A stretch of 64,000 nucleotides of DNA from Micromonospora pattaloongensis (GTDB lineage Bacteria; Actinomycetota; Actinomycetes; Mycobacteriales; Micromonosporaceae): the NCBI RefSeq assembly GCF_900107255.1, contig NZ_FNPH01000002.1, positions 186,001 to 250,000 of the forward strand, written 5' to 3'. Below the pieces are notes generated by a model, which made no database searches, was not told the origin of the DNA, and worked only from the letters and a program-made list of their open reading frames with translations. Position numbers and translations under genes: made by a program. Positions 42,350-54,615 of the stretch are shown one piece after another. Each line of letters starts with the position of its first letter. The first letter of the stretch is position 1.

Positions 42350-42600
42350 GGCGCGCGTCTCTATCAGGCGGCAGTGGACGCGGCAGGAGCAGTGCTCCCC
42401 GCCGGCCCATTCACCCGCAACGGCCCCGTCGGCCCGTCCAACGGCGTCACGATCACCGGCGACATGGCCCTCTTCCTACAAACTGGTGTTCAACGCTGGT
42501 CTCGTCCTGATCGGCCCCTGACGCCCGCACTTAAGAGTTCCCAACAAAATGATCCACAGGCCCGTCGTCCCTTGTAGAGGGTGATCTACGACGTCGGACC

Positions 42601-42795
42601 GTGACGCGTGGGGAGCAGCCGCCGCGGGTCGTGCCGGACGGGCTGTGGCAGCGCATCGAGCCGTTGCTGCCCAAACCTGAGCGCAATCCTTGGTACCCCG
42701 GGCGTAAGCGGATTCCGGACCGGCAGGTGCTGTGCGCGATCTTGTTCGTGTTGCATACCGGCCGGCATCCAGTGGGAGTCCCTGCCTGGGGTGGT
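42601..42795 (+). mobile_element. IS5-family transposase N-terminal fragment
   Basis: From a GTG the frame reads QPPRVVPDGLWQRIEPLLPK, PERNPWYPGRKRIPDRQVLC and AILFVLHTG, the N-terminal (DUF4096-type) domain of IS5 transposases. A 4-bp tandem duplication (CCGGCCGG) near 42760 shifts the frame, and the expected IQWESLP continues in another frame. The rest of the transposase is absent. Confidence 0.75.
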
Positions 42796-42807
42796 GACGG
42801 GTTGTCG

Positions 42808-43074
42808 GTGACGGACAAGGACGCGGAGATCGCCCGTCTGCGGCGTGAGGTGGCTGAGCTGCGGCAGGAGGAAACCCCCATCTCCACCACCGTGGGTAAC
42901 ACGGCGCGAAGGGGCTGCGCCGGGTGCTGGCGGGCCGCGCTCCGGGTTTTACCGCTGGCGGCAAGTGAGCCGGCCCTTGGGGCTCGCGCCGCGCACGAGG
43001 ATCGCTTGGCCGAGCAGACCAAGACCGTCCACGCCGACTCCGGTGGCGCCTACGGGTCGCCGCGCGTGACCCGC
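42808..43074 (+). mobile_element. IS3-family orfA/orfB remnant
   Basis: GTG-started VTDKDAEIARLRREVAELRQ is the leucine-zipper end of an IS3 OrfA. Fragments of OrfB follow in different frames (SGFYRWRQ, then KTVHADSGGAYGSPRVTR). Several frameshifts and no catalytic DDE part remain. It is fused directly to the IS5 fragment and lies just beyond the Rhs immunity gene. Confidence 0.7.
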
Positions 43075-43179
43075 CACCCACAACGCCCACAGTTCCCGGC
43101 GAATCGATCATGCGCCGCACGGCCAACCACACCTCTCCGTGACTGACCTCAGCGACCGCTCATCGAATTACCGTGCTCA

Positions 43180-43416
43180 TCAGGACGGACTCTTCGACAT
43201 CTTCGAAGCGGGCATGTACTCCGCTGCCTCCATTCCATCTTCCCAGAAAACCCACAGGCGCCCACACGTCGGGCAGTGCAGCACCAATTTCGCTAACCCG
43301 AAAAGATAAGTACTATCGGAATCCACATTGAATTCACGACGCGAAAGCAGTAGCAGGCTGCCGTCAGGGTCGTCGTCTCGGAGTATCGTCTCGCACCGAC
43401 AAATCATCTTGGCCAC
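43180..43416 (-). CDS. candidate immunity protein for the Rhs toxin, cysteine-containing
   Basis: This 78-aa protein begins at a GTG only 2 bp after the Rhs stop (ATG at 43407 is an alternative). It shows two Cys pairs, ICRC near residue 5 and HCPTCG near residue 47, spaced like a zinc ribbon, with acidic/hydrophobic segments RDDDPDGSLLLLSRREFNVD and LWVFWEDGMEAAEYM. Position directly after a polymorphic toxin module is the classical place of an immunity gene. I do not recognise a named Imm family, so the function is inference. Confidence 0.68.
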   Translation of the reverse strand: MAKMICRCETILRDDDPDGSLLLLSRREFNVDSDSTYLFGLAKLVLHCPTCGRLWVFWEDGMEAAEYMPASKMSKSPS

Positions 43417-43418
43417 TG

Positions 43419-46400
43419 CTACCCGCCCATGAACTCTAGGCCGCCGATTGGCCGCTTGCCCCAGCTTCCAATCATTCCATTAACCCTGTTCAGCGCATTG
43501 CCGAACTGCCCAACAGAAAGTCCTGTTCCGCTGAGATCGACAACCACACCACCGCCATTCACTTGGGAATGCTTCTTGGCAATATTGGTAAGGATATTGT
43601 TGACGGATCCACTAGTTGGCGAATAGACGTCCCAGGCGACGCCGTCCACCAATAGATCACTTGTCATCCCTCCTGACCTAGTGCCGACCGGATCACGAAG
43701 AACAACATTACCGCCCCGGGCAGCCATGTGCTGTGCGGCCGCAATCTCAGACGCTGACGGATTCGCAGCCGATACCCGAAGGGATCCCAGATTCGGGCCG
43801 GCAATGAACTTGCCGCAGTTGTGCACGAGCACGGGCGTGCTGCCGGCGAGCACATAGTACGTGTGAATGTCGGCGACGTTGAGGTTGTAGACCTGCGCCG
43901 TCTGCGTCCAGCGGCCGATAGCCGTGATTTGCACGTACGTCCCGGCCGAGGTCTGCAGCCACTGGCCGGGCGCCAGCTCTGTGGCGTCCCGCCATTGGCC
44001 CAGCTCTGGCACCCAGAACGGGTGCTTGTCGGTCGCGATAACCGTGCCGGTGGCCTGACCGTCGTCACCGTCGTTGTCGGTGGTGATTTGGACGAGGTTC
44101 TTGGCACCCTTACCGACGATCGTGGCGGCTACAGGCTTCGCGTCGGTCTCGCCGGTGTTGGGGTCGGTGGCCAGGACTGTGTCGCCTACCTGGATTTCCT
44201 CGATCCGCTTGGTGGTGCCGTCGGCCATGACGACCGAGGTACCGGGCGCGAAACTGTTGTTGACACAGCCCCGCAGTCCGCCGGCGCCTCTGCCGCTCGC
44301 GGTCACACTAGAACGCATGCCGCTCATCGCCATCTGTCCCGCGGCTTTGAGCCCCATGCCGGACGTAACGGCGACGCCTGCACCGAAGGCCGCGGCACCG
44401 AGCAGGGCGCCACCGACTCCCATTACGCCGCCGATCACGCCGCCGCCAAGGGCTTCGAGAGCGAGTCCCCCCGCGCTTTCCTCGTCGGCGTCAAGTCCGT
44501 TGGTGACGAGGGAGCCGACGGCACCGCCGACGAATCCGCCGATCGCGGCGCACCCCACAGCGCCGACACCGAAGCTGCCGATCGTGCAGGCCGCGCCGAC
44601 GATGACGCCTGCCGCGATCCCGGCGACCATGCCAACCGTGCTGGCGTTACGGCACCAGAAGCTGGCCTGGCATTCGCGTTGTTTGCGGTCGGCTTCTTCG
44701 CGTGCCTGTTGCTGTGCGGCGACTTTCGCGGCGACCTGAGGTAGGAGTGCCTGAGTTTGCTGCAGGCCCGCCTTCATTTGCTCGGGGGTGACCCCGTCGT
44801 ATCGGGTCGTGGTGCCGTCGTAGTAGCACCCGCCTCCACCGCCCGGGCAGGGATCTTCGCCGGTCGGGTCGGCGTGGCTGATGGGGCTGTTGTAGCTGTA
44901 GGCGTAGGCGTTCCATTGTTGCGGGTCGGCCAGGTCCATGACGGGGTCGACGCTGATGAACCGGCCCAACAGCTGGTCGTACTGGCGAGCGCCGATGTTG
45001 GTCAGCCCGGTCGGGTCGATGTCGCCGCCGACGAATCCCTTGCCGTTGACCCATGTCGGGTTCTCGCCGCGGGGTCCGCCGTAGGGGGTCTGCCGGCGGA
45101 TGTCGACGGCCTGGGTGCCGGCATTGATGGCGGTCTGCTGGGTTCCCTGGTGATCGCCGTAAAGCCAGGTCAGGTCGGAGATCGCCGAGCCTGCCTTGCG
45201 GGAGGCACAGATGTTGCCGGCGAAGCTGTAGTACCGGGTCCCGGTGCTGACGCCGCCTTCGCGGCGGATCTCCTGCCCGGGCAGGTACAGCGTGGTACCG
45301 GTCAGGTCGCGACGAATGAGTCGGACACCATTGGTGTCGTAGATGTTGGTCTCGATGGTTTGTCCGCTGGCCGCGGTGACGGTGGCCAGCTTACCTTCGG
45401 CGTTCCACGCCAGCGTCTGGCTGTCGCTCTTGGTGGCGCAGTCGTTGGCCGTGGGGCCGGCCGGCCGGCAGGTCGTGTTACCCGCCTCGTCGTAGCCGTA
45501 TTTCGAGACGACGCTCGACTGCCCCGGAGCGGCGGTGTTCATTTCGGTGACGGCGTGCGGCCGTACGACGTTCGGTCCGCCGGTCGGGACCTTGTACGTG
45601 CGGGTGGTGTCGCCGCTGTCCGCGTGGCTGGTCTCGGTGAGCCGGTTGCCGGTGTTGTCGAAGGTCCAGTCGTGCCAGTAGCGTGCGGGTCCGCCCAGGT
45701 CGGCGACCGTCGGGGCGTTTTGGCACGTAACCCCGGCTTTGGGGGTCCAGGCGGTTTCCAACCGGCCGAGAACGTCGTGGCGGAAGCACTGGGTTTCCGC
45801 TTCGCCGACCTGGGGCGTCTCGGAGATCGAGGTGATGTTGCCGACGTGGTCGTAGGTGTAGTTGCGGTCGGAGACGGTGCCGGCGACGGTTTCCCGCTCG
45901 ACGGTGGTGCGGGTGATGCGGCGGGTGGCCTCATCCCGATAGACGGTGTCCTGGGTGTAGACGCCGCCGGGCATCTTGTAGATGGACCCGGAGCGCTCCC
46001 CGTAGGCGGTGTAGGAGGCGGTGGCCATGGTGCCGGTCGAGCCGGTGAGGCTGGTGTCGAGGCGGACCGGCATGCCCGTGGTGGCGTGGTAGTCGGTGGT
46101 CAGCTGTTCGGTGACCAGCCCGCCGCCGCTCGGGTATGAGATGGACGTCGGTGTGCCGGTGGCGGCGGCGTAGCCGTAGGCGTAGACGTAAGTGGCGCCC
46201 AGGCCGCTCTCTACGGTCGGAATGACGTAGTTGACGCCGGTCGGCTGGTAGCGGCCGTTGAAGTCACGTACCTGCCACCTGTAGGCGTTGGTCGAGCCGG
46301 CCGGTTCGTAGCGGATGGCCTGGGTCAGCTGGCCTTTGAAGCCGGTCTTGCCGCTGGAGAGGGAGTCGTACTTCCACTCCGCGCGAAGCGCCCCCGTGGC

Positions 46401-49400
46401 CGAATCGTCGCGCAGCGCCTTCTTGCGGCCCAGTTCGTCGTAGACGTACCACAGTGCCTCGCCGCGGGCGTCGACCGTCTTCTCCAACTCGTTGAACGCG
46501 TTGAAGTGGCTGGTCGTGACACCCTTGTCCGGGTCGGTGGTCCGCCAGAGCCGGCCCTTGACGTCATACTCGTTGAACCACTCGTTACCGCCCGGGTCGA
46601 CGGTCTTGACCAGCTGATCCTTGCGGTTGAAGACGTACTTGGTCTCCTGGTAGGCGCCGGCCACCCCGGCAGGCGTGGTGTGCTGCCGGAGGGCCGCCGT
46701 GCGGCCCTCGATGTCCGTCACCGTGGTGGTGGGCGTGCCACCCTCCGGCGGGGTGACCTTCGTGAGGTCACCTTCGTACGCGGTGACCGTCCGCCACTTC
46801 TCCACCAGGTTCGTGATCCCGTCGCCTGCCAGAAAGATGCCGGACGTAGGGCGGGACGCCTGGTCGAAAACCGTCTTGGAAACGGCGGGGACCGACCATT
46901 CCGGCTCCCACCACAACGTGCCGCTCGGCGCCCCGGGCTCGGCGTGCGCGCCGTAGCTCGTCGCAGCTCGCCCGAACTCGTCGTAGATCGTGTCGGTCAC
47001 GACGCGATCGCCGCTGCCACCCAACGAGAGCGACTGCGTCTGCCGCGGGCGCAGCAAAGCGTCGAGAATCTGGTACGACGTGACGTAGTTGCCGTCCGGG
47101 TTCAAGGTCTGCGACATGACGTACGGGTACCTGTCGCGGCCCGCGGCGAATGTGTACGAGTACTGCGCTGACGGTCTGGTCGGGTTGGCCTGACTGCTCC
47201 AGCCCAGCTGCCACACCTTGGCGACGCGGCCGAGGGCGTCGTACTGGACCTCTGACGTGACTCTGTCATTCGGGTCGGTGGCTTGGATGGTCGAACCCCA
47301 GTACGGGTTCACGTCCACGCTGGAAGTCCAGTTGAACGGTGCTGGACCCGTCGTAGCGACCTTGGTGACCGGGCCGCCGACCAGCGGCGTGTAGGCGGTC
47401 GAGGTGACGTTGCCCTTGATGTCGGTGGCGGTCCGCCGACGGCCGGTTGAGTCGTAGCTGGCCTGCGAGACCGTCTGCCAGACCGTTCCGGTACCCGCGG
47501 CCCAGTCCTTGAGCTGCTCGGTCTTCGTCACCGATCCGAACCTCGGCGCCGTGTCGACGCTGGTCGCGTTGTCGTAGTAGCTCCGCGCGTCGGAGATCAC
47601 GTCATCAGCGCTGCCGGGGTTGACGCCGCAGGCCAACGCCGTGGTCGTGGTCTGCTTGACCGTCTGGGTGAGGTTCTTGGTCAGGTTTCGGTTGTAGCTG
47701 TAGGTGACGCACTTCTCGTCACCCGTCTTGCTGAGGTCGCCATCGTCCTGCGACCACTTGACCGTGCCGTAGGTGTGGTCGAGGTCCTTGGTGCCCCGCG
47801 AGGTCCGCCAACCCCGAGCACCGTCGACGCCCAGCGCGGTCGAGGTGTAGGTCGTCTGGGTGTTGACGAAGCGGGACTCCACCACGTCGCCGTTGATGGT
47901 CCGGCTGGCGGTCGGGTTCGAGCGCCACGGCACGTTCACCGTCTTGGACACGGGCTTGGTGGCGACACCGTTGTAGACGACTTGTTCGCGTACCTGGCCG
48001 GCGAACTGGTCGTGGTCGTAGACGGTCTCCGACCCGAGCGACGCGGGCACCGTCACGTTACGGGTACCGTCCGACGGGCTGGCCTTGTCCCCGTGCATGC
48101 CCCGCATGAAGGTGGTAATCGCCAGCGTCCGGGCCGCGGGGTCGTCGCCTACCCGCGTCTCGACCCGGGCGTACCCACGCCACTGATTCCACGTCTTACG
48201 ATCCGGCTTCGACAGACCGTCGTCGTCGGCGTAGTGCCACGCCGGCGAGCCCACGTACGTGTACCAGGTGTGCTTGGCCGGAGCCTGATGCCCGTCGGTC
48301 AGCTGCACGTCGTTTTCGACCACATGCTCGACGCGGTGTTTGTGCCACCATTCGGTGATCAGCGCTTTGCCGGTCGGGTCCTGCGGGTCGGGCACCCGCA
48401 CCGGGTAACACCGCCTGGTATTGGTGTGCGGCTGCAGATCCTCCACGATCGCCTCGGTGCACTCCGGCTGCGCGTAATCCACCTTGATACGCGCGCCGGT
48501 CTCCGTGACGATGCTGGAAATCCGCAGCCAGTTGTCCGTCGTGCCGTGCTCGGTCAACACCCGGTTCGGCAGCGACTCGGCCTCGAACGTCACGGGTGGC
48601 AGGTTGACGGTGCCGCCGACCAGCCCCGCGTGGTCAATCTTGTCGAGCCACAGGCCGGTATGCGTCGAATCCGCCGTCGCGGAGAACGTGTGCGACAACG
48701 TCCACGACTCCACGTTCTGCCACGCCGGCGTCGACTTGGTGGTGTCCCACACCCGCGTCGTGATCTTCTTCAGCCGCTTCGTGGTCCAGAACGTCGGCTG
48801 GTACTGCTGCGGACATGACGTCGCCGACGCCTTGCACTCCTGATCCCACGGCGTGTCCTTCCAACTGTCAGCGACCGGGTCCGACTCGGTGCCACAGTTC
48901 GAAAAACAGCGCATGTCCGTCTCGAACAGCACCTGCGCGTACGGCGACACGCTGCGCTCGCTCACCCCGTGAGCCTCGACCGTCCGGTCGTAGGTACCGT
49001 AGTCGATCCGGGTCAGGTACCCCGCCCGGTCGTACGTCACGTCATCGGAGTCGGTGTCGTTGCGGGCGTACTTGTTGGTCTCCTTGCCGTACCACAGCGA
49101 CATCGTGTTGCCGTGTACGTCCACGACGTAGTCGAGATTCCACCGCCACGCCTGCTCGCAGTCGGAGCCCGTAAAGGTGGTCTTCCGACACGGCTCACCG
49201 CTGTGGTTGCCGAAAACCGGCACGGTCAACGTGGAGTTGGTCTTCGCGGAGTGGCCCGGCAGGCTGTGCAGGCCGAAGAAGTACTGAGTGCCGTCGGTCG
49301 TCGTCACCTTCCAGTACTCGCCCACGTCGCCGTAGGCCGGGTCACCGGCATCACCGTTGGACGCGCCGGTCAGCTTCTCGATCTTCGACCCGTCCTCCGC

Positions 49401-50540
49401 ACGCGAATGCCAGCCCTTACCCGCCTGGAAGATGAGCTCCCCGCCGCGGCCGTTCAGGCTCATCGTCGCGTTGTCCGACCGCCAGCACTGATCGCCGCTG
49501 TCCTCGGTGTTGTTCGCGCCGGTCTTCATGTCCTCGGCACACGGCACGTATCGGCGCTCGATGAACCCGGGCGAATAGTCGAACCCCTCGCCGATCCACG
49601 ACGGCTGGTTATTGGTCACCTCCGAACGACCGTCGACCGCTGAGGACGAGTACGACAACGCGATCGATGGCGCCGGGCCGGTCGCGGGCGGAATGCGCAA
49701 CGGGTAGCTCCACGAGAAGTCTCCGGAGCTGCCGCCCGCCGACCAGGTCGACGACGGAGCGAGGCCGGTCGCGGCGAAATCACCGCTCTTGCCTGACCCG
49801 CCCGCCGCGAGCACCACGAACGAACCCGGCTGCGCGGCGGTCGAGGACGACGAACGGCCCACGGTGACTTGCGCAGACGCCACACCCGCTGCGACATCGT
49901 TGGACGTGCGCAACGGCACCGACCGGCAGCCTGGCCTGTCGGGCGTGGAGAGCGCACATTCGGGCACCTGCCACAGCCGCAGTCGCTCCGCCCACGAACC
50001 GCCGCCCGCATACCGGAATGCGTTGTAGTCCACGGACACCGTCGCGGCTCCCGCTGGCGCATCCTGGGGCGCGGTCACCTTCAGCATCAGGCCATCACGC
50101 CACGCCTGCGGCACGGTCGTCCGGTCGATGACCTGGACATCAACCCTCGACAGCTGCTCGCCGGCCTTCCCAGCGCCCCGGTTGACCCAGACGGGCAGGT
50201 CGCCTGCGCGCACCCCCCGGGCAGCAGCGGTGCGGGCAGCGGCCGCACTCAGCTCGACCCGCGCGGTCGCCGCTTTCGGCCATGCCGGCGTCGGTGCCGG
50301 AACATGCTTCACCCGGTTTTGCGCCCATGCCTTCCCCGTCACCGGGCCGCCATGACCGTCGAGCCTTTCCACCGGCGGCTTCGTGGGCTTCGCGGGCGGC
50401 GTCGCCTGTGCCGGGACACCCGGCAGCAGCGACACGAAAAGCGACACGGTCACCGCTCCGACGAGCACCGGGCGCCGCCCGCCCACGCCGATAAGACGCC
50501 GACGGGCCCGCCGCGATCCGCGCACAGACACTGCAGACAT
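43419..50540 (-). CDS. Rhs/YD-repeat polymorphic toxin with HINT and CdiA-type tRNase-like C-terminus
   Basis: This 2373-aa exported protein starts with a signal peptide (GRRPVLVGAVTVSLFVSLLP, cleavage after QA). A beta-rich N-terminal region follows (GDFSWSYPLRIPPATGPAPS, SIALSYSSSAVDGRS) and then many YD repeats (YDALGRVAKVW, YDVKGRLWRTTDPDKGVTT, YDEAGNTTC). The Rhs core end is ARQYDQLLGRFISVDPVMD. Next come a Gly/Ala-rich hydrophobic stretch, a HINT domain (bases 43818-44267, CVNNSFAPGTSV to TPVLVHN), and a 132-aa toxin (43419-43817) with SEIAAAQHMAARGGNVVLRD, GTRSGGMTSDLLVDGVAWDV, VVVDLSGTGL. The toxin resembles the CdiA C-terminal tRNase family. AAGGATCACC precedes the ATG at 50540; the frame is open to 50609. 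Confidence 0.85.
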   Translation of the reverse strand: MSAVSVRGSRRARRRLIGVGGRRPVLVGAVTVSLFVSLLPGVPAQATPPAKPTKPPVERLDGHGGPVTGKAWAQNRVKHVPAPTPAWPKAATARVELSAAAARTAAARGVRAGDLPVWVNRGAGKAGEQLSRVDVQVIDRTTVPQAWRDGLMLKVTAPQDAPAGAATVSVDYNAFRYAGGGSWAERLRLWQVPECALSTPDRPGCRSVPLRTSNDVAAGVASAQVTVGRSSSSTAAQPGSFVVLAAGGSGKSGDFAATGLAPSSTWSAGGSSGDFSWSYPLRIPPATGPAPSIALSYSSSAVDGRSEVTNNQPSWIGEGFDYSPGFIERRYVPCAEDMKTGANNTEDSGDQCWRSDNATMSLNGRGGELIFQAGKGWHSRAEDGSKIEKLTGASNGDAGDPAYGDVGEYWKVTTTDGTQYFFGLHSLPGHSAKTNSTLTVPVFGNHSGEPCRKTTFTGSDCEQAWRWNLDYVVDVHGNTMSLWYGKETNKYARNDTDSDDVTYDRAGYLTRIDYGTYDRTVEAHGVSERSVSPYAQVLFETDMRCFSNCGTESDPVADSWKDTPWDQECKASATSCPQQYQPTFWTTKRLKKITTRVWDTTKSTPAWQNVESWTLSHTFSATADSTHTGLWLDKIDHAGLVGGTVNLPPVTFEAESLPNRVLTEHGTTDNWLRISSIVTETGARIKVDYAQPECTEAIVEDLQPHTNTRRCYPVRVPDPQDPTGKALITEWWHKHRVEHVVENDVQLTDGHQAPAKHTWYTYVGSPAWHYADDDGLSKPDRKTWNQWRGYARVETRVGDDPAARTLAITTFMRGMHGDKASPSDGTRNVTVPASLGSETVYDHDQFAGQVREQVVYNGVATKPVSKTVNVPWRSNPTASRTINGDVVESRFVNTQTTYTSTALGVDGARGWRTSRGTKDLDHTYGTVKWSQDDGDLSKTGDEKCVTYSYNRNLTKNLTQTVKQTTTTALACGVNPGSADDVISDARSYYDNATSVDTAPRFGSVTKTEQLKDWAAGTGTVWQTVSQASYDSTGRRRTATDIKGNVTSTAYTPLVGGPVTKVATTGPAPFNWTSSVDVNPYWGSTIQATDPNDRVTSEVQYDALGRVAKVWQLGWSSQANPTRPSAQYSYTFAAGRDRYPYVMSQTLNPDGNYVTSYQILDALLRPRQTQSLSLGGSGDRVVTDTIYDEFGRAATSYGAHAEPGAPSGTLWWEPEWSVPAVSKTVFDQASRPTSGIFLAGDGITNLVEKWRTVTAYEGDLTKVTPPEGGTPTTTVTDIEGRTAALRQHTTPAGVAGAYQETKYVFNRKDQLVKTVDPGGNEWFNEYDVKGRLWRTTDPDKGVTTSHFNAFNELEKTVDARGEALWYVYDELGRKKALRDDSATGALRAEWKYDSLSSGKTGFKGQLTQAIRYEPAGSTNAYRWQVRDFNGRYQPTGVNYVIPTVESGLGATYVYAYGYAAATGTPTSISYPSGGGLVTEQLTTDYHATTGMPVRLDTSLTGSTGTMATASYTAYGERSGSIYKMPGGVYTQDTVYRDEATRRITRTTVERETVAGTVSDRNYTYDHVGNITSISETPQVGEAETQCFRHDVLGRLETAWTPKAGVTCQNAPTVADLGGPARYWHDWTFDNTGNRLTETSHADSGDTTRTYKVPTGGPNVVRPHAVTEMNTAAPGQSSVVSKYGYDEAGNTTCRPAGPTANDCATKSDSQTLAWNAEGKLATVTAASGQTIETNIYDTNGVRLIRRDLTGTTLYLPGQEIRREGGVSTGTRYYSFAGNICASRKAGSAISDLTWLYGDHQGTQQTAINAGTQAVDIRRQTPYGGPRGENPTWVNGKGFVGGDIDPTGLTNIGARQYDQLLGRFISVDPVMDLADPQQWNAYAYSYNSPISHADPTGEDPCPGGGGGCYYDGTTTRYDGVTPEQMKAGLQQTQALLPQVAAKVAAQQQAREEADRKQRECQASFWCRNASTVGMVAGIAAGVIVGAACTIGSFGVGAVGCAAIGGFVGGAVGSLVTNGLDADEESAGGLALEALGGGVIGGVMGVGGALLGAAAFGAGVAVTSGMGLKAAGQMAMSGMRSSVTASGRGAGGLRGCVNNSFAPGTSVVMADGTTKRIEEIQVGDTVLATDPNTGETDAKPVAATIVGKGAKNLVQITTDNDGDDGQATGTVIATDKHPFWVPELGQWRDATELAPGQWLQTSAGTYVQITAIGRWTQTAQVYNLNVADIHTYYVLAGSTPVLVHNCGKFIAGPNLGSLRVSAANPSASEIAAAQHMAARGGNVVLRDPVGTRSGGMTSDLLVDGVAWDVYSPTSGSVNNILTNIAKKHSQVNGGGVVVDLSGTGLSVGQFGNALNRVNGMIGSWGKRPIGGLEFMGG

Positions 50541-50593
50541 CAGGTGATCCTTTCCAGGAGCGACAACCGCTACGACATCCGAACGAACGAAGG

Positions 50594-50610
50594 GGTGACC
50601 CGGGGTCACC
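50594..50610. promoter_or_regulatory. 17-bp near-perfect palindrome before the Rhs gene
   Basis: GGTGACCC-G-GGGTCACC lies 54 bp upstream of the Rhs start. The one-base centre disfavours a hairpin and favours an operator for a dimeric regulator. It is not matched to a known regulon. Confidence 0.4.
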
Positions 50611-50682: not shown

Positions 50683-53600
50683 TCACCGGCGCCACACGAC
50701 CTGACCACCGGTATCGAGCAGGACGAGGTCGCCGTCGTCACGCAAAACGAGCTTGTCCACCGCGGTGCCTGCCGTACCGGTGGACCACAGAGCGGTGCCG
50801 TCGCCGCTGCGCACGACAAGGTTGCCGTCGGCCTGGAATGCAAGGTGCGCCCCGGGATGGCCGCCCGTTGCGGTCTGCCACATCGGCAGGCCGCCCTGGG
50901 AGAGCACCAGGTCGCCGTCCTCCTGCATCTCCAAGCGGTAGTTACCGGTGTCGGAGCGCAGGTACTGCCTCTCTGTCAAGATCTCCCCGCGGGGCAACGT
51001 ATTGGTGCCCGTTTCCGGCGGAACCTGCAGGTTGTACAGCTCGAACATCGACGTGTCGCTCATCGCACCCTGGAACACCGCGACGTCGTCGATCGCGCCG
51101 ATCCACTGGTCCATTAGCTGGTCGCGCGACAGCGTCCGGCCGACCAGCAGCGGTCCGGATGACGGCATCGGGGTGAATGACACCGGCTTCGCTCCTTCGA
51201 GCAGGCCGTTCACGTAGATGCGCAACTGCTTACGGCCGGCGTCGTACACGCCCGCGAGATGCGTCCACACTCCTTCTGTGGCCGCAGACTCCGAGGTGAC
51301 CCCCGCCGTCGCGGTGTTCGAGACGTCTTCGTCGCTGACTACGAACTCCCACTTGGCAAGTGCGGGGTTGTATCTCAGCCAGCTCGCGCTCTCATGCACC
51401 CCGCGCTGTGATACCGCCGTGCGCATCCCACCCAGGTCGTTGAGCAACACCCACGCCGATATCGTGAACGAGTCGTCGGTACGCAGCACCGGCCGGTCCT
51501 GCCACTGCGTGAACTCGTTGCCGTCACCGTCAGGCCCGGTGATGCCCGTCTTGACCGCGCTTCGGCCATACTCCCGGGTGGCTTCGGTGTTGCCCTCATC
51601 GGGAAAGTAGTGGTCATCGATCCACAGACCCGTGTCGTTGATCGAATGCCCCGCATCCACCGCTGAGCCTCGGGTCAACGCCAGCCATCGCTCCCATGCC
51701 GTCACGGTGTCCGGAGCTTCGCAGTTGTCCCGCAGATCAGCGATACGGCACTCGACGGCTCCGTCGAAATTCCACTGCCCCACCTGGATCGGCGTCAAGA
51801 TGCCGGGCTCGTTGAACCCACCCGACAGCTCGTCAGAGCCCAACTGCCCGATGAAATCCTGGCCCACCAGCACCCGGTTGAATACCTGGACACCCGCGAT
51901 CGAGCCACTCCACCAATTCTCGGCCGCGCCGAATCCGAACCCGCGTCCCACGACGAACTTGCCCGATGCCGCCCATGGCGAGACGCTGCGATCGGCCTCC
52001 GCAACTCGCACGCCATTGACGTACAAGCGAACCCTTTGCTCCGCTGCGTCGTACACCCCAGCCACATGAGTCCACTTGCCGACGTCCGCCGACGTGATCG
52101 CCACCGTTGATACCGCCGCCCGTGAGGCACTCGACTGGGCGGACGTGTCCTTCAGGAGGAAAGACCAGTACGGCGTCAAGGGGCTGCCCATCCGGCGCAC
52201 GCCGAAGTCGAACCCTGCCGCGTCGGTCCCCTCCTGCACGGCGATCTTCGCGTCCGTGGTCGGTACCGCGTTGAGGCGCACCCACGCGGCGACGCTGAAC
52301 GACCCGGTGGTGGCCACCACGCTCGCTGCGGTGGTCGCGGCCGACGAACTGCCATTGAACGTGGCGGTCTGCCCTCCAACCAAGCGCACATCGCCTGGCC
52401 AGGTCACGTTCGATGCGGTCAGCGGGGAATTGGTCGGCGAGGACTGCTTGTCCGCCAGAGCCCCAGCTTGATTGATGCCGGGATAGGTTTCCAACCCCCA
52501 CGTCGCCACCGGCGGCGCGGTACGCCCAACCATGAACTCGACCGACCCGTTGCCCTCGTTCAGGGTGGCATCGACGGCCTTCACCAGCAGTACGTTGCGA
52601 CCGAAGCTCGCCGCGGTCACGTCAACCTCGGCGTACTTCGGGTTCGTCCCCTGGGCCGTCACCTCCCTGGTAGCGGCATCCCAGCCGTACTTGAACTTGG
52701 TGACGTCCGTGTCGGTCGATTCGAACCGGACCCTGCCCTTCATACCCGGCCCGGCCGGCACCGTCACCATGCTCGCCGACACCCGCGGAACCGACGTATC
52801 CGCCCTGAACTGGCACCACGCCGACCACGAGCCGGTCAGGGAATAGGGCGCCTTGTCGGTAGCCCTGGCACGGAATGCATACGTTGGCCCGTTCACGATC
52901 GACACCGCAGCGCTGCTGGCCCGGGTATTCGGTGCAACCCCGGCCTTATTCGGTGGCGGGGTTCTACGCGTCGGCGAGGTGTCGGTCACCGCGCCCATGC
53001 CACCGGTCGGGACCTGAATCCACTCGAACGCACCCGTCAACGAGTCAGCCTTGTCGGCGTCGGTGAACACCGCCGAGAACGTCGGGCTCAGCGTGCCGAT
53101 CGTCAGCACACCCGAGGCCGGACACGCCACACCCGCAACCTGTAGTCCGTTAGGAGCCCCCGGCTTTGTGTCGTAGTCCACGACAAACTTCGCGCCGTTG
53201 GGGTGGAACTTCTTCCACCGGTCCTGCGTCGACTCCCCCGACCCATCCGACGCGCGCGCCGTGAAACCCACCGTGAACGTGTTCCAGTTCTCGGTCGCGG
53301 CGGACTGCACCTGGCTGGTCACCACCGAGCCCGAGAAGTTCATGATCATGTCCGGTTGGATAGAGGTGCATCCACCGGCTTCGTTCGCGTGGCCAGTCGC
53401 GGTGTCCAGGAGCTTCTTCAAGGCCATGGTCGACCAGCTGGCCTTCATCGTGGCGTTGATGGCCGGCGTGGAATACATCGACGTGACCGTGTTCCCGCAC
53501 GACCACGAGTGGTCAAGGTTCATCTGCACATAAGCGGACTCGATGTGCTTCCCCTTCAGCGACACCCCGTTGGCCGTCGTCGGGAACTCGAAGAACGATC

Positions 53601-54615
53601 GGTAGACAGCGCCGGTGTCGGGATTCAGCCCAACCCGAGCGGTCGCGTAGTCAGTGTTGGACGAGCCGTCATTGGTTGCATAGGCCCACTTGGTCTTGTA
53701 CACAGACCACGCCGGGTCGACGAACAGCGGAAACATCGCGTCCGGCGCGTCCAACAACTTTGCGTCCGGCCGCAACAGCAGGTCCTTGCCCGCGATCTCC
53801 ACGTCGACCGGCGCAACCCGGGCGGCATCGCCGGCGGCGACCGGCGTGGAAGGCAACCCGGGTTCGGCGGCCCGCAGGCTCGCCGAACCGGCCGTGGCTA
53901 CCTGGGTACGGGAGTCCCACATCACCGCCGACTCCGACTCCGCGATGACCGACCTACCCGCCACCGCCCGCAGCCGCCCGCTTGAGGCGGAGCGCACCTG
54001 CACCTCGCCGCCCAACCCGAACCGGATCAGACGCACCGACGGGTTCGCTGCTGCCGCCGCCGTCTTGATGACCAGGACGTGGGTAAACCCGGTTCGCGTG
54101 GCCCGCACGACCAGGTCGACGTCAGGCAGCACGCTCGGATACGTCGCCGAATCCCCCGACACCGTGGGCGCCGGCAGAGGCCTGCCCGGCCACGTCATCG
54201 TCATCTTCTTACCGTGACGAGTGAGCGTCACGAGCGGGCCGGAACCGCCGCCGGAAAACACCACATCGGCCACAGAGACCGCTGGCCGCAGCAGACCGTC
54301 GGCTCCGCGAGAGAGCGTCAAGTCCACGTCGGCCCACCGACCCGCCTTGCGCGTGCGCTGCGGTACCACCGACGCCTCAAACCGAAAGCGGCCATCCGGC
54401 TGCGCCACGACCTGGGCGAACTCCGTACGCGAAGCCTCGGCTACCATGGGCTTTCCACAGGAGACAGCCAACGCGGCGGCTTCACGGTCCGAGCTGGCGG
54501 TGTCCGCACACTCAGCGGCCGCCGCGGCAGGCATTGACCCAGGTAGCACAACGAGACCTGCGGCCATGACCGTCGCTACCCACCCGGCCAACCCGCAACG
54601 CCACCGACCGCCCAC
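50683..54615 (-). CDS. secreted LamG-domain protein with C-terminal B-lectin domain, Rhs partner
   Basis: This 1310-aa secreted protein has a signal peptide (GLAGWVATVMAAGLVVLPGS, cleavage after AAAAA). An N-terminal beta-region typical of actinobacterial Rhs partners follows (RFRFEASVVPQRTRKAGRWA, LFVDPAWSVYKTKWAY). Two LamG/concanavalin-like domains follow (SFSVAAWVRLNAVPTTDAKI and KWTHVAGVYDAAEQRVRLYV near residues 770-880; SFTISAWVLLNDLGGMRTAV and VWTHLAGVYDAGRKQLRIYV near 1050-1130). A C-terminal bulb-lectin repeat domain has QADGNLVV and RDDGDLVLLD. It lies 142 bp upstream of the Rhs gene on the same strand and probably binds glycans to hold or display the Rhs protein (inference). Confidence 0.85.
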   Translation of the reverse strand: MGGRWRCGLAGWVATVMAAGLVVLPGSMPAAAAAECADTASSDREAAALAVSCGKPMVAEASRTEFAQVVAQPDGRFRFEASVVPQRTRKAGRWADVDLTLSRGADGLLRPAVSVADVVFSGGGSGPLVTLTRHGKKMTMTWPGRPLPAPTVSGDSATYPSVLPDVDLVVRATRTGFTHVLVIKTAAAAANPSVRLIRFGLGGEVQVRSASSGRLRAVAGRSVIAESESAVMWDSRTQVATAGSASLRAAEPGLPSTPVAAGDAARVAPVDVEIAGKDLLLRPDAKLLDAPDAMFPLFVDPAWSVYKTKWAYATNDGSSNTDYATARVGLNPDTGAVYRSFFEFPTTANGVSLKGKHIESAYVQMNLDHSWSCGNTVTSMYSTPAINATMKASWSTMALKKLLDTATGHANEAGGCTSIQPDMIMNFSGSVVTSQVQSAATENWNTFTVGFTARASDGSGESTQDRWKKFHPNGAKFVVDYDTKPGAPNGLQVAGVACPASGVLTIGTLSPTFSAVFTDADKADSLTGAFEWIQVPTGGMGAVTDTSPTRRTPPPNKAGVAPNTRASSAAVSIVNGPTYAFRARATDKAPYSLTGSWSAWCQFRADTSVPRVSASMVTVPAGPGMKGRVRFESTDTDVTKFKYGWDAATREVTAQGTNPKYAEVDVTAASFGRNVLLVKAVDATLNEGNGSVEFMVGRTAPPVATWGLETYPGINQAGALADKQSSPTNSPLTASNVTWPGDVRLVGGQTATFNGSSSAATTAASVVATTGSFSVAAWVRLNAVPTTDAKIAVQEGTDAAGFDFGVRRMGSPLTPYWSFLLKDTSAQSSASRAAVSTVAITSADVGKWTHVAGVYDAAEQRVRLYVNGVRVAEADRSVSPWAASGKFVVGRGFGFGAAENWWSGSIAGVQVFNRVLVGQDFIGQLGSDELSGGFNEPGILTPIQVGQWNFDGAVECRIADLRDNCEAPDTVTAWERWLALTRGSAVDAGHSINDTGLWIDDHYFPDEGNTEATREYGRSAVKTGITGPDGDGNEFTQWQDRPVLRTDDSFTISAWVLLNDLGGMRTAVSQRGVHESASWLRYNPALAKWEFVVSDEDVSNTATAGVTSESAATEGVWTHLAGVYDAGRKQLRIYVNGLLEGAKPVSFTPMPSSGPLLVGRTLSRDQLMDQWIGAIDDVAVFQGAMSDTSMFELYNLQVPPETGTNTLPRGEILTERQYLRSDTGNYRLEMQEDGDLVLSQGGLPMWQTATGGHPGAHLAFQADGNLVVRSGDGTALWSTGTAGTAVDKLVLRDDGDLVLLDTGGQVVWRR

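Follow-up and report, generated by a model that had tools for sequence, protein, structure and literature searches.

A probable immunity protein with putative zinc-binding cysteine knuckles, encoded directly behind one subtype of PF18451 tRNase toxin

The tRNases CdiA-CT-Bp1026b and SitA3 belong to Pfam family PF18451. Activity on tRNA-Ala is known for both (PMC9086364 for Bp1026b; PMC5562445 for SitA3), and the catalytic residues of the Bp1026b toxin are E187, D214, D223 and K242 (PMC9086364). SitI3 protects against SitA3 (PMC5562445), while CdiI-1026b and CdiI-E479, two immunity proteins unrelated to each other, contact the active site of their toxins (PMC9086364). Paired cysteines are also on record among immunity proteins: a family that adjoins SitA6 toxins is listed in NCBIfam as 'SitI6 family double-CXXCG motif immunity protein'.

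We analysed a stretch of 64,000 nucleotides from Micromonospora pattaloongensis (hereafter the window), in which a toxin of the PF18451 family is followed by a short gene for a cysteine-containing protein. The features discussed here are the following.

43180..43416, minus strand: proposed immunity gene (open reading frame, toxin-linked homologues, kept cysteines, purifying selection)
43419..50609, minus strand: Rhs-repeat toxin carrier of 2396 aa, whose tip is preceded by an Rhs core and a pretoxin HINT domain (TIGR03696, PF07591)
43419..43796, minus strand: C-terminal toxin domain, PF18451 CdiA_C, of PD-(D/E)XK tRNase type (Pfam, PDB 4g6v, catalytic residues)
43180..43796, minus strand: low-GC toxin-immunity cassette (GC per segment)

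The 2396-aa reading frame contains an Rhs core (TIGR03696, 50.9 bits) and a pretoxin HINT domain (PT-HINT PF07591, 73.2 bits, residues 2129-2264). Its tip scored 36.7 bits against Pfam PF18451 CdiA_C, above the gathering threshold of 26.6, and matched CdiA-CT-Bp1026b (PDB 4g6v) with E=1.5e-4. When the tip was aligned to 4g6v, all four catalytic residues of the Bp1026b toxin had counterparts, that of E187 being set by ungapped extension just beyond the aligned range, and the catalytic columns were kept in 16 aligned toxins except for one position in a truncated toxin of Myxococcus xanthus (L022). By analogy with Bp1026b and SitA3, the window toxin may also act on tRNA-Ala. The GC content of the toxin tip and the short gene is 55-56%, against 66-68% in the surrounding segments, which is consistent with exchange of the cassette. 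Directly upstream of the Rhs gene lies a 1310-aa minus-strand reading frame (50683-54615) that may belong to the Rhs system.

The short gene has a GTG start, separated by 2 nt from the TAG that ends the toxin reading frame, and encodes an acidic protein of 78 aa (net charge -3) with the motifs CRC (residues 6-8) and CPTC (residues 48-51), so that the description in the first-pass annotation of a CxC/CxxC protein encoded directly after the toxin holds. Both motifs occur in 5 of the 286 window reading frames of 50-150 aa, this gene among the five; the motifs alone are thus weak proof, and it is their conservation that carries weight. A comparison with a 68%-identical homologue (L002) gave a dN of 0.17 and a dS of 0.75, and C6, C8 and C48 are kept in 21 of 21 distinct homologue sequences, indicating that the reading frame is a real gene and ruling out that it is spurious. 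Among the reading frames within the window, no second candidate antidote was found 3' of it. Just downstream (42531-43146), transposase-like fragments with broken frames were seen by eye.

Homologues were searched for in the bacterial family of the window, in its order, in the GTDB collection (with a seven-row alignment) and in the order of Microbispora; the order-level matches L014-L016 were left out as spurious or generic. This gave 22 homologous loci in Actinomycetota, Myxococcota, Bacteroidota and Pseudomonadota. The first-pass annotation had proposed to check whether homologues stand next to the same toxin type, and had held that homologues mostly away from toxins would speak against its idea. 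In 18 of the 22 loci the gene lies on the same strand directly behind a toxin of the same PF18451-type subtype, with a gap of -14 to +11 nt, and a small single-domain gene that recurs directly downstream of one toxin type is what is expected of polymorphic-toxin immunity. In two of these 18 loci (L003 and L061) the toxin gene is frameshifted, and in L022 it is truncated, lying behind a transposase-like stretch. For 16 toxin-partner pairs, toxin and partner distances were correlated (Mantel r 0.686, with 0 of 20,000 permutations as high), a correlation that partly reflects shared ancestry.

Four homologues are orphans with no toxin nearby (L007/L021, L012, L025 and L062). At L065 (5001-6865) an orphan member stands among three other small same-strand genes, a low-GC3 group between high-GC3 genes; the three neighbours have no significant Pfam match, two of them look alike by eye, and the group is possibly a polyimmunity array. 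A single copy of the family was present in each of 11 genomes checked. The family is rare: an evenly drawn phylum sample returned only the window itself, and Hahella sp. HN01 was the sole genome with a match among the 185 searched from its class. Searches of mobile elements gave no real homologue in viral contigs (sole match, 12 residues), in plasmids (match of 24 residues) or in the phages searched.

The pairing is confined to one toxin subtype. In 355 genomes of the window's bacterial family, close toxins were found in seven, and the cysteine-type gene in six of the seven; one toxin 58% identical to the window tip (L034) has no cysteine-type gene behind it. More distant PF18451-type toxins (25-33% identity) are followed by genes encoding about 150-190 aa, and the cysteine-type family was absent from 13 other PF18451-toxin control loci. 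Two partners of the other toxin subtype, each of about 150-160 aa, were scanned against NCBIfam; one comes from the actinobacterial control locus L041, the other from L022 of M. xanthus. Both belong to SitI3, an assignment that covers these two partners. The NCBIfam SitI3 model (NF040657) matched neither the window protein nor any of nine members scanned. We ruled out SitI3 as prior art for the cysteine-type family, as it goes with the other toxin subtype. At least two immunity families, unrelated to each other, therefore serve this toxin family, and which of them is present goes with the toxin subtype. Both are seen in M. xanthus AM003 (L022, 1456-5258), where two toxin-immunity cassettes stand in tandem. 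The first comprises a SitA-like lipoprotein, whose SitA3-type tip is frameshifted, together with a gene of the SitI3 family; behind a transposase-like stretch follow the cut-short toxin of the window subtype and its cysteine-type partner.

Across the 21 distinct sequences, the invariant residues are C6, C8, C48, W55, W58 and Y67. Residue 51 is Cys in 17 sequences, all with Arg at position 53, and Ser in the remaining four, all with His at position 53. The joint change of C51 to Ser and R53 to His looks, as would be expected of a metal site, like a swap of metal ligands. The tree permits one origin of the Ser51/His53 form, so that it may reflect one coupled change and not four independent ones. 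Every sequence thus has two knuckles with four Cys/His ligands in the manner of a zinc ribbon, either CxC and CxxC or CxC and C-x4-H, although CxC, at the first knuckle, is shorter than the CxxC that zinc ribbons usually have. This ligand pattern suggests that the 78-aa protein holds a structural zinc. AlphaFold models were of low confidence overall (pLDDT 67.5 and 69.2); the weak model has a strand-knuckle-strand arrangement twice, E3-5/C6xC8/E11-13 and E42-47/C48xxC51/E54-58, in blocks with a pLDDT of about 72-82. Fold searches of the PDB with both weak models gave nothing significant, LysW and Trm112 being among the non-significant matches.

Pfam, NCBIfam, PADLOC and PHROGs returned no significant family match for the 78-aa protein, and profile searches of all PDB chains returned no CdiI, CdiI-1026b included. 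The first-pass annotation had considered the protein unlike known CdiI proteins and possibly of a new immunity family. The former is borne out by these searches, and the latter gains support from them together with the 18 of 22 toxin pairings. A match to a general zinc-ribbon family, which would have counted against the proposal, did not appear: in scans of twelve members, the best E-value against the Pfam zinc ribbons was 0.011, for one member only. In calling it unusual for the immunity protein of a tRNase toxin to bind metal, the annotation went too far, because the SitI6 double-CXXCG family is already in NCBIfam; with the phrases used, searches of open-access papers turned up no immunity protein that binds zinc. 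The family is uncatalogued in the databases searched, and the arrangement itself is familiar, not a new kind of system.

Might the protein be an immunity protein whose cysteines are core or redox residues of a small alpha+beta fold of its own, with no metal? The absence of any significant match to a zinc-ribbon structure or family, a first knuckle that is CxC and not the usual CPxCG, and the low confidence of the models would all fit. However, three cysteines are invariant when elsewhere only two Trp and one Tyr are, Ser51 always comes with His53 as in a Cys-to-His ligand swap, and a protein acting in the cytoplasm would hardly need two disulfides. We consider a metal-free protein unlikely.

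The pairing bears on two other explanations. A general zinc-ribbon protein (a regulator, chaperone or nucleic-acid binder) could lie behind toxins by chance, and the CPxCG-RLW stretch does resemble generic zinc ribbons, with sub-threshold matches to Zn_ribbon_9 and RNA polymerase ribbons; but one toxin subtype is paired in 18 of 22 loci across four phyla, the 11 genomes checked carry one copy apiece, and neither a family match nor a recurring non-toxin context was found, making chance placement highly improbable. Alternatively, the protein could serve the toxin as a folding or loading partner or as a second part of the effector. Position alone does not separate such an accessory from an immunity gene, and SitB accessory genes occur in myxobacterial loci (PMC5562445). 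Yet the slot directly behind the toxin is the place of immunity genes and is taken by SitI3-family genes in the other subtype, the window has no other candidate antidote after the 78-aa gene, and orphan copies that lack a toxin are easier to reconcile with an antidote than with a loading factor. An accessory role is therefore very unlikely.

We conclude that the 78-aa protein is probably the cognate immunity protein of the Rhs-delivered PF18451 tRNase toxin, holding zinc and binding the toxin. The reality of the gene, its pairing with one toxin subtype, the paired divergence, the ligand conservation and the ligand swap are all supported by the computational tools, and counted against this explanation are the four toxin-less homologues, the L034 toxin lacking the gene, and the weak models. 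Judging from gene context, the small gene very probably makes an antidote that protects the producer. In the proposed mechanism, two cysteine knuckles (CxC with CxxC, or CxC with C-x4-H in a subgroup) of a small, acidic, cytoplasmic protein would hold one structural zinc and give a zinc-ribbon-like fold. Once the toxin domain is released, the protein would bind it, most likely on the active-site face in the manner of CdiI-1026b and CdiI-E479, and tRNA cleavage would thereby be stopped in the producer and its kin. Binding over the active site is suggested by analogy with these two proteins and by charge, the family being acidic (mean net charge -5.5, versus +0.6 for the toxins). Other immunity proteins of the PD-(D/E)XK-type toxin superfamily bind at different sites, and active-site blockage is thus the weakest step.

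A further idea, which we regard as quite unlikely, is that protection depends on the metal, so that zinc shortage or cysteine oxidation turns the antidote off. If true, kin immunity would be tied to the cell's metal or redox state, and of the two or more unrelated immunity solutions to PF18451 toxins one would be conditional on metal. SitI3 is a proven partner for this toxin family; what the locus adds beside it is an uncatalogued immunity family, spread across phyla and probably with a structural metal. Unrelated antidotes for one toxin family, each bound to its own subtype, offer a clean test of how toxin-antidote specificity originates, and annotators could name genes that now match no family.

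Among known systems, SitI3 (NF040657, M. xanthus) resembles the window protein in that its small gene immediately follows a PF18451 tRNase tip, with protection shown for its founder (PMC5562445), but it is a 140-position family that lacks the cysteine pattern and pairs with the other toxin subtype, and the window protein is unmatched in NCBIfam. SitI6 (TIGR02264 / PF09535) is likewise an immunity protein with two paired-cysteine motifs that adjoins its toxin, SitA6; it differs in its length of about 240 aa and in its toxin family. A profile comparison showed no relation (hhalign probability 5%), NCBIfam gave the cysteine-type family no match to SitI6, and one member reached only E=0.15 against PF09535. 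The partner toxins of CdiI-1026b and CdiI-E479 share their fold with the window toxin, and the Bp1026b toxin also has the same catalytic residues, whereas PDB profile searches found no sequence relation between these immunity proteins and the window protein. The passages of Zhang et al. 2012 (PMC3482391) that we searched describe no CxC/CxxC immunity family; the Imm families presented there were discovered by the same logic as used here, that of a small toxin-adjacent gene specific to one toxin type.
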